Assembly: GCF_900108505.1 (NCBI RefSeq) | Contig: NZ_FNWU01000003.1 | Location: forward strand, 186,001-250,000 | Source of the DNA: Halopenitus malekzadehii | GTDB lineage: Archaea; Halobacteriota; Halobacteria; Halobacteriales; Haloferacaceae | Reading direction: 5' to 3' | DNA: 64,000 nucleotides | In this document: piece after piece, positions 34,356 to 36,035 of the stretch | How positions within the stretch are numbered: position 1 is the stretch's first letter | Layout: each line of letters begins with the position of its first letter | Notes under the pieces: model-generated | The model's database searches: none | What the model was told of the DNA's origin: nothing | Seen by the model: only the letters and a program-made list of their open reading frames with translations | Position numbers and translations under genes: made by a program

Positions 34356-34362
34356 GGTGATC
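34356..34362 (+). promoter_or_regulatory. Shine-Dalgarno sequence of the amt-glnK fusion
   Basis: GGTGATC is complementary to the 3' end of haloarchaeal 16S rRNA (GATCACC) and lies 5 nt before the ATG at 34368. Most genes here appear leaderless, so a clear ribosome binding site marks this gene as having a true 5' leader. Confidence 0.65.
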
Positions 34363-34367
34363 GTCTG

Positions 34368-36035
34368 ATGGTGGGCACGGGGCTCCTGGCGCAGGTCGAT
34401 CCCTCGGTGATCGCCGAGGGCGTGAATCTGCTGTGGGTTGCGGTCGTCTGTTTCCTGATCTTCTTCATGCACGCCGGCTTCGCGATGCTTGAGGCGGGGC
34501 AGGTGCGTGCGAAGAACGTCGCCAACCAGCTGACGAAGAACCTGCTGACCTGGAGCGTCGGCGTCCTGGTCTACTTCCTGATCGGGTTCGGCGTCGAGGC
34601 CGTCGCGGGCGGAAGCGGCGTCTCGATGGAGACGTTCACGGCCGCGATGACCGCGCCCGACGGCGCGTGGGTCAACAGCTGGCTGTTCGGTGCCGTCTTC
34701 GCGATGACGGCGGCGACGATCGTTTCCGGCGCGGTCGCCGGCCGCGCGAAGCTCCGCGCGTACGTCGGCTACACGATCGTGCTGTCGGCAGTCATCTACC
34801 CGGTCGTCGCGGGGATGTCCTGGTACGGCGGCGGCCTCCTCGCGGGGCTCGGCTTCACGGACTTCGCGGGCGGGATGGTCGTCCACGGGATGGGCGGCAT
34901 CGCCGGCCTCACGGCCGCGTACGTGATCGGCCCGCGGATGGACCGCTACGCCGGGGACGGCTCGACGAACGTCATCCCGGGCCACTCGATGACGTTCGCG
35001 GTGCTCGGAACGCTCGTCCTGGCGTTCGGCTGGTACGGCTTCAACGTCGGCACCACCGCGACCGTCTTCGCCGTCGAGAACGGCGAGTTGACGCTTGGCG
35101 GCTTCGGGGTCGTCGGTCGCGTCGCGCTCACGACGACGCTCGGGATGGCCGCCGGGGGCATCGGCGCGGCGCTTGGAGCCCTCGCACTCACCAAGAAGGT
35201 CGATACCCTCTACGTCGCCAACGGGCTGCTGGCGGGACTGGTCGGCGTTACCGGGATCGTCGACCTCGTCACCTGGTGGGGCGCCATCGCGGTCGCGCTG
35301 GTGTGCGGCCTCCAGCTCCCGTTCGTCTTCGAGTTCGTCTCGGACACGCTGAAGATCGACGACGTCTGTGCGGTCTTCCCGGTCCACGGCTCCGCCGGCG
35401 TCATCGGGATCCTGGCGCTGCCGTTCGTCCACGTCGACGGCTTCTCGGTCGACCTGCTCGTCTCGCAGGTCGTCGGAACCGCCGTGATCACGGTCTGGAC
35501 CGTCCTCGCGACCGCAGCGGTCTTCGGCGCCTTCAAGGTGGCCGGACAGGCCCGCGTCGCGCCCGAACACGAGCGTGAGGGGCTCGACGTCTCCGAACAC
35601 GGCGTCGACACCTACCCCGAGTTCGGCAAGCCGATCGCCGCCGACGGGTCCGGAGCCAGCGTCCGCGCCGACGGCGGCGCGGAGGCCGGCACCGAGATCA
35701 AGATGGTCACGGCGATCGTTCGCCCCGAGAAGCTCGGCGAGATCAAGACCGCGCTCGCCGGGATCGGCGCGCCCTCGCTGACGGTCACGAACGTCTCCGG
35801 CCGCGGCTCCCAGCCCGCCAAGACGGGCCAGTGGCGCGGCGAAGAGTACGTCGTCGACCTGCACCAGAAGGTGAAGATCGAGTGCGTCGTCGCCGACATC
35901 CCGGCCGACGAGGTCGCGGCGGCGATCCGCGAGGCCGCAAGCACCGGCGAGCCCGGCGACGGGAAGGTCTTCGTCCTGCCAGTCGAGGACGCACTGCAGG
36001 TGCGCACCGGCACGGCCGGGCCCGAGGCGGTCTGA
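34368..36035 (+). CDS. amt: Ammonium transporter Amt fused to a PII/GlnK domain
   Basis: A 555-residue fusion. Residues 1 to about 405 are a complete Amt channel with eleven membrane helices, the twin His positions in [20 protein letters not shown] and [17 protein letters not shown]. After a 35-residue linker, residues 444-555 form a full-length GlnK ([20 protein letters not shown]). Its T-loop has [17 protein letters not shown] with Y494 at the classic modification position, followed by [14 protein letters not shown], and it ends in the ATP-site strand [17 protein letters not shown]. In most archaea GlnK is a separate soluble protein that plugs Amt when nitrogen is plentiful. The DNA across the junction is continuous with no stop or start signals. 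Confidence 0.95.

Follow-up and report, generated by a model that had tools for sequence, protein, structure and literature searches.

An ammonium channel and a PII protein in one open reading frame

The 64-kb window (the whole stretch of DNA analyzed, whose positions are used throughout) contains on its + strand an uninterrupted open reading frame of 555 aa, with its ATG at 34368 and its stop codon at 36033-36035 (34368..36035). By direct reading, a ribosome-binding-like motif, GGTGATC (34356..34362, + strand), lies 5 bases 5' of the ATG. The frame encodes a complete Amt, a tether of ∼25 residues, and a complete P-II/GlnK domain, all features given below being on the same strand. Pfam assigns residues 23-416 (34434..35615) to PF00909 (Ammonium_transp) with 302 bits against a cut-off of 23.2, and residues 445-548 (35700..36011) to PF00543 (P-II) with 93 bits against a cut-off of 25. 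By the narrower NCBIfam model TIGR00836 the Amt part scores 311.9, under that model's own cut-off of 343.3. The domain search of the fusion protein found nothing besides Amt and P-II, and no histidine kinase-type output domain; there are no Rfam matches within the window. The original prediction, made on reading the sequence, that Amt and a full GlnK domain with T-loop Y494 share one polypeptide is thus borne out. Its coordinates for the reading frame were also right, but the Amt end that it placed at residue 405 was not: with the conserved cytoplasmic tail included, the channel part extends to about residue 419.

The twin histidines of the channel, H173 (34884-34886) and H340 (35385-35387), align with those of AmtB in the comparison with solved Amts, and are invariant in 48 fused relatives. 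The pore aspartate, W152, and F111 are conserved as well. The cytoplasmic C-terminal region of Amt (residues 396-419; 35553..35624), which includes GLDxxEHGxxTYPEF, aligns with the tail of Escherichia coli AmtB and is recognized by its invariant columns (R396, V397, H401, E402, G405, L406, D407, E410, H411, G412, T415, and Y416-F419). It is followed by the flexible tether (approximately residues 420-442; 35625..35693), whose length varies in relatives and whose pLDDT is <50. Within the tether lies RADGG, an instance of the RxDGG motif conserved in fused linkers (residues 433-437; 35664..35678). Coding-type GC periodicity runs on through the linker: GC at the three codon positions is 0.74/0.56/0.86 in fused linkers, similar to the 0.65/0.48/0.89 of Amt coding sequence.

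In the GlnK domain, comparison with E. coli and free haloarchaeal GlnKs delimits the T-loop at residues 480-498 (35805..35861) and equates R490 with E. coli R47 and Y494 with Y51. The equivalents of R47, Y51, Q39, K58, G87-K90, and R103 are all present in the window gene, and conservation of R47, Q39, K58, G87-K90, and R103 is as consistent in fused GlnKs as in free haloarchaeal ones. The R101 position is occupied by Gln, likewise in 62 of 63 free haloarchaeal GlnKs. With its conserved Amt C-terminal region and its T-loop arginine, the protein has the features of the AmtB-GlnK interface. The closest solved chain is Haloferax mediterranei GlnK2 (4ozj/4ozn), solved with ATP. Y51, the modified site in classical PII, is replaced by Phe in 27/100 fused GlnKs, while it is Tyr in 63/63 free haloarchaeal ones and in the window gene. 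The idea that this replacement marks fused GlnKs in general was rejected: outside Halorubrum, only a record deposited under the name Halobellus captivus and a single unassigned MAG have it, which makes it lineage-specific.

The fused gene is the only Amt and the only PII of its genome

Neither a second P-II nor a second Amt was found in the genome of Halopenitus malekzadehii, which is 99.6% complete. It had been foreseen that the fusion would fix a 1:1 linkage and hold GlnK at the membrane, and that a separate glnK elsewhere could spare soluble signaling. The first expectation is supported by the single reading frame, and the search for a separate glnK left the fused copy as the sole P-II. The GlnK of this species is thus the C-terminal domain of a membrane protein, rather than a soluble, diffusible PII. 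The genome has two glutamine synthetase homologs and no match to GlnD or GlnE. Since the fused gene is the only copy of both Amt and P-II, sensing of nitrogen status in H. malekzadehii appears tied to the membrane.

The fusion is the majority form in Halobacteria and arose independently in Firmicutes

We sampled 136 genomes of Halobacteria, 127 of which carry P-II, and called a gene fused when its P-II open frame exceeded 500 aa, checking in a subset that both domains lie in the same ORF. Fused Amt-GlnK occurs in 78 of the 127 P-II-bearing genomes (73 with the fused form only, 5 with fused and free forms), and the remaining 49 have free P-II only. Of the 53 genera with a P-II, 35 include the fused form, which is retained across whole genera. 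The implied oddity of a single gene is therefore not borne out, the fusion being the majority form. The nearest named relative, Halopenitus persicus, has a fused protein that is 93% identical, and the fusion is present in two species of the genus besides that of the window. No fusion appears outside Halobacteria in the same phylum among the matches listed, where the longest open frame is 172 aa.

In four genomes the fused gene is directly followed by one or two separate GlnK genes: L128 (G021), L079 (Halohasta litorea), L019 (G058), and L149 (G192). These additional genes perhaps restore a diffusible PII. At another locus, L143 (G197), Amt is split over two frames and accompanied by a shortened GlnK match, possibly a decayed pair.

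Amt-P-II fusions of 563-601 aa are also found in the gut Firmicutes Ruminococcus albus 7, Monoglobus pectinilyticus, Subdoligranulum variabile, and Enterococcus raffinosus. Like the haloarchaeal proteins, they consist of Amt and then P-II in one polypeptide, but they have ∼35% identity, form their own branch of the Amt tree, and possess other linkers, without RxDGG. The separate branch and the different linkers indicate an independent fusion. These genes lie on plasmid records (L171-L174), three of which are annotated just as "ammonium transporter."

The fused and free states changed repeatedly

We built a tree from concatenated Amt and GlnK (76 haloarchaeal rows, 200 bootstrap trees). The fused/free state changes 10 times on it (9-11 in the bootstraps, 5-95% range), and at least five changes are forced by strongly supported branches. 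A single origin without later splitting is rejected, as 0% of the 200 bootstrap trees show one change. The change count alone does not tell fusion from splitting, and the tree thus indicates that the fusion arose and/or split repeatedly. Two cases point to a direction. The free form of G001 and G029 branches from within fused relatives of the window gene, with strong support, and possesses a full GGAGGTGA together with an overlapping ATG, which points to a re-split. Conversely, the fused forms of G121 and G126 carry a different Amt type that is otherwise free, which points to a separate fusion; G126 was judged by a tail near-identical to that of G121, without its own placement on the tree.

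Four Halorubrum genes are chimeric (L090, L098, L102, and L107, from Halorubrum laminariae, H. alkaliphilum, H. ezzemoulense, and Halorubrum sp. SD626R). Their linker and GlnK are of the Halorubrum type (92-97% identity), and their Amt module is closest to other genera (∼86%). The channel half can thus be exchanged by recombination inside the fused gene, and the concatenated tree is imperfect for those rows.

Such a history could mean that the fusion is nearly neutral, with partners at about 1:1 joined and split by chance small indels and with little regulatory change, a reading with which a plug mechanism would still be compatible. The ∼10 changes, at least five of them forced, fit it, as does the G001/G029 free form, which has a complete ribosome-binding motif and overlapping start among fused relatives; most free pairs, moreover, overlap already. 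The presence of both forms in close relatives may likewise mean that tethering changes little. However, fusion predominates and is maintained across whole genera, internal initiation signals are depleted under chance level (see below), Firmicutes gained a fusion of their own, and some Halorubrum genes acquired another Amt half without losing their linker and GlnK half or their fused state. We consider near neutrality a serious contender, but on this evidence a somewhat improbable one.

Signals for a separate GlnK are missing at the junction

In most free haloarchaeal amt/glnK pairs the two genes overlap (ATGA or ATGnnTGA), and their frames usually differ. The ribosome-binding motif GGAGGTGA occurs near the end of amt in 25/69 free pairs and in none of 98 fused linkers. 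The shorter motifs GGTGA and GGAGG are found in 42/69 and 36/69 free pairs, respectively. We compared their counts in fused linkers with those expected from synonymous codon resampling (300 resamplings). GGTGA is present in 8/98 linkers versus 18.8 ± 3.4 expected, with 0/300 resamplings as low, whereas GGAGG (31/98 versus 38.3 ± 4.5) is near chance. Thus, with GGAGGTGA absent and GGTGA depleted, the normal signal for a separate GlnK is missing. A retained internal ribosome-binding site was rejected because no fused linker has GGAGGTGA.

These counts bear on whether free GlnK is still made from the fused gene, through an internal start (e.g., at Met446) or tether cleavage, in which case soluble PII signaling would persist. 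An ATG is indeed found at the start of the GlnK domain in the window gene and in 83/100 fused genes, and some Halorubrum genes have GGAG ∼6 bases 5' of it; the RxDGG of the tether is, in addition, strikingly conserved. Yet in the window gene the ATG of Met446, the only in-frame start near the junction, has no ribosome-binding motif before it, Leu replaces this Met in 17/100 fused genes, and starting there would lose the residues before the first strand that free haloarchaeal GlnKs retain. Together with the difference in GGAGGTGA between fused linkers and free tails and with GGTGA falling below chance, this makes a free product unlikely.

RxDG is found in 95/98 fused linkers, with D435 and G436 invariant, and RxDGG reaches 321 per 10,000 linker residues versus 1.8 in background genes. 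The motif is also found in many free Amt tails, and is not unique to the fusion. We considered whether it might be the coding remnant of a ribosome-binding motif and rejected this, because fused genes mostly use GGC GGC codons, so that the amino acids of RxDGG are kept, not a DNA motif. As a separate observation, the linkers of L064, L074, L084, and L152, from distant lineages, have stretches in common that resemble ERxxESxSSSELRSDGG and may represent a small insert, either mobile or repeated.

The Amt part resembles receptors in overall score but lacks two of three pore-blocking residues of Ks-Amt5

In an AlphaFold2 model of the monomer both domains are folded, with a mean pLDDT of 73 from a shallow alignment (48 rows). 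The tether (here 406-442) and the T-loop (475-498) have pLDDT <50, as would be expected if the one is flexible and the other mobile. At 3.5 Å per residue, a stretched tether of at least 23 residues would span ∼80 Å, more than the width of a PII trimer, and its reach is therefore probably not limiting.

The nearest solved Amts are Ks-Amt5 (180 bits), Sd-Amt1 (129 bits), and AmtB (114 bits), and the order by fold is the same. Since the first two are receptors and come ahead of AmtB by score and by fold, the Amt part could in principle be an ammonium receptor that signals via its attached domain, rather than a transporter. The pore-blocking residues of Ks-Amt5 are F27, Y30, and F34 (PMC10433425). 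They align here with F38, L41, and Q45, of which only the first is alike, so that two of the three are absent. The protein is also the sole Amt of its genome, and the attached domain is a PII, neither a kinase nor a cyclase. We therefore regard a receptor role as very improbable.

That the missing stop between two genes is a sequencing or assembly error, as the original prediction had allowed for with a base-calling error at the junction, and as might be suggested by the single amtB2/glnK2 annotation of Haloferax mediterranei that is a misannotation according to its own authors (PMC11218638), has practically no chance of being right and is ruled out by the comparative data: many independent assemblies, including two more species of the genus, share the in-frame fusion with divergent linkers of 23-62 residues, and glnK lies in a frame other than that of amt in most free haloarchaeal pairs, so that loss of one stop would usually not fuse them.

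Proposed mechanism: a channel plugged in cis

We suggest that GlnK probably acts, within one polypeptide, as a cis-acting, ligand-gated plug of its own channel; the trimer geometry, the plugging in cis, the gating, and the loss of soluble signaling are inferred. The cytoplasmic tail of Amt would bear a GlnK of its own, attached by a tether that is flexible and acidic. Amt channels trimerise, and this would gather three GlnK domains as a usual PII trimer beneath the pores. When 2-oxoglutarate is low or ADP is high, the T-loops would enter the pores and ammonium uptake would stop; with ATP plus 2-oxoglutarate they would withdraw and uptake would resume. In genomes without another PII, diffusible signaling to soluble targets such as glutamine synthetase would be lost, or would persist only for those that move to the membrane.

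Haloferax GlnK joins AmtB1 in membranes after an ammonium shock and reversibly leaves it, in vivo (PMC3831643). According to the same paper, which cites Pedro-Roig 2013b, this GlnK activates glutamine synthetase in vitro. In fused-only species such a role would require the target to be at the membrane. More tentatively, most haloarchaea may have given up diffusible PII signaling altogether, with nitrogen status read and acted on only at the membrane and soluble partners such as glutamine synthetase either independent of PII or drawn to the channel, a generalization about which we are rather doubtful. The N-terminus of Amt faces outward and its C-terminus inward (PMC10433425). With this topology only the order amt-glnK can yield a working fusion, and all fusions observed here have that order. 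Overall, the fusion at this locus is real, widespread, and recurrent, and its channel is most likely regulated in cis by its own PII.

Relation to known systems

PII proteins are textbook mobile signal integrators, and GlnK normally plugs the channel as a separate, diffusible protein. The fusion is ordinary for its class, yet PII specialists should find it moderately surprising, since most genomes that have it contain no other PII. A sole PII that is covalently part of the ammonium channel in 73/136 sampled haloarchaeal genomes offers a natural test of how far PII function depends on diffusion, and close relatives that differ in having the two parts fused or separate, through repeated switching, provide ready-made pairs for comparison. 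We found no paper in the open-licence literature that characterizes an Amt-GlnK fusion as such. Tremblay and Hallenbeck (2009), a reference for Amt modules joined to further domains, may mention it.

The existence of an AmtB-GlnK fusion is not new: Marsh 2013 (PMC4009401) lists AmtB-GlnK among "prefusion" complexes with STRING fusion evidence. The authors note that high salt dissociates the E. coli complex, and argue for this reason that fusion would not conserve the order of assembly; the passages concerned name no organisms, spread, or function of the fusion. Within the open-licence literature, the class-wide spread, the sole-PII status, and the recurrent fusion and splitting appear undescribed. 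The behavior of the E. coli complex at high salt suggests the hypothesis that a tether helps in the saline cytoplasm of haloarchaea. As the sole cause of fusion, high salt was rejected: many haloarchaea have separate genes and low-salt Firmicutes are fused too, so salt is not the whole reason.

Compared with the AmtB-GlnK complex (E. coli 2NS1/2NUU; H. mediterranei AmtB1-GlnK), the fusion has the same partners, the conserved Amt tail, and the T-loop residues, and plug-and-release by ATP/ADP/2-oxoglutarate is presumably common to both. In the complex, however, GlnK forms a trimer of its own that diffuses and binds the membrane reversibly, whereas the fusion attaches it covalently, as the only PII. 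Ks-Amt5 (an Amt-histidine kinase) and Sd-Amt1 are like the fusion in carrying a regulatory domain on the cytoplasmic C-terminus of Amt; they are receptors that send a signal out, whereas here the fused domain would regulate the channel itself.
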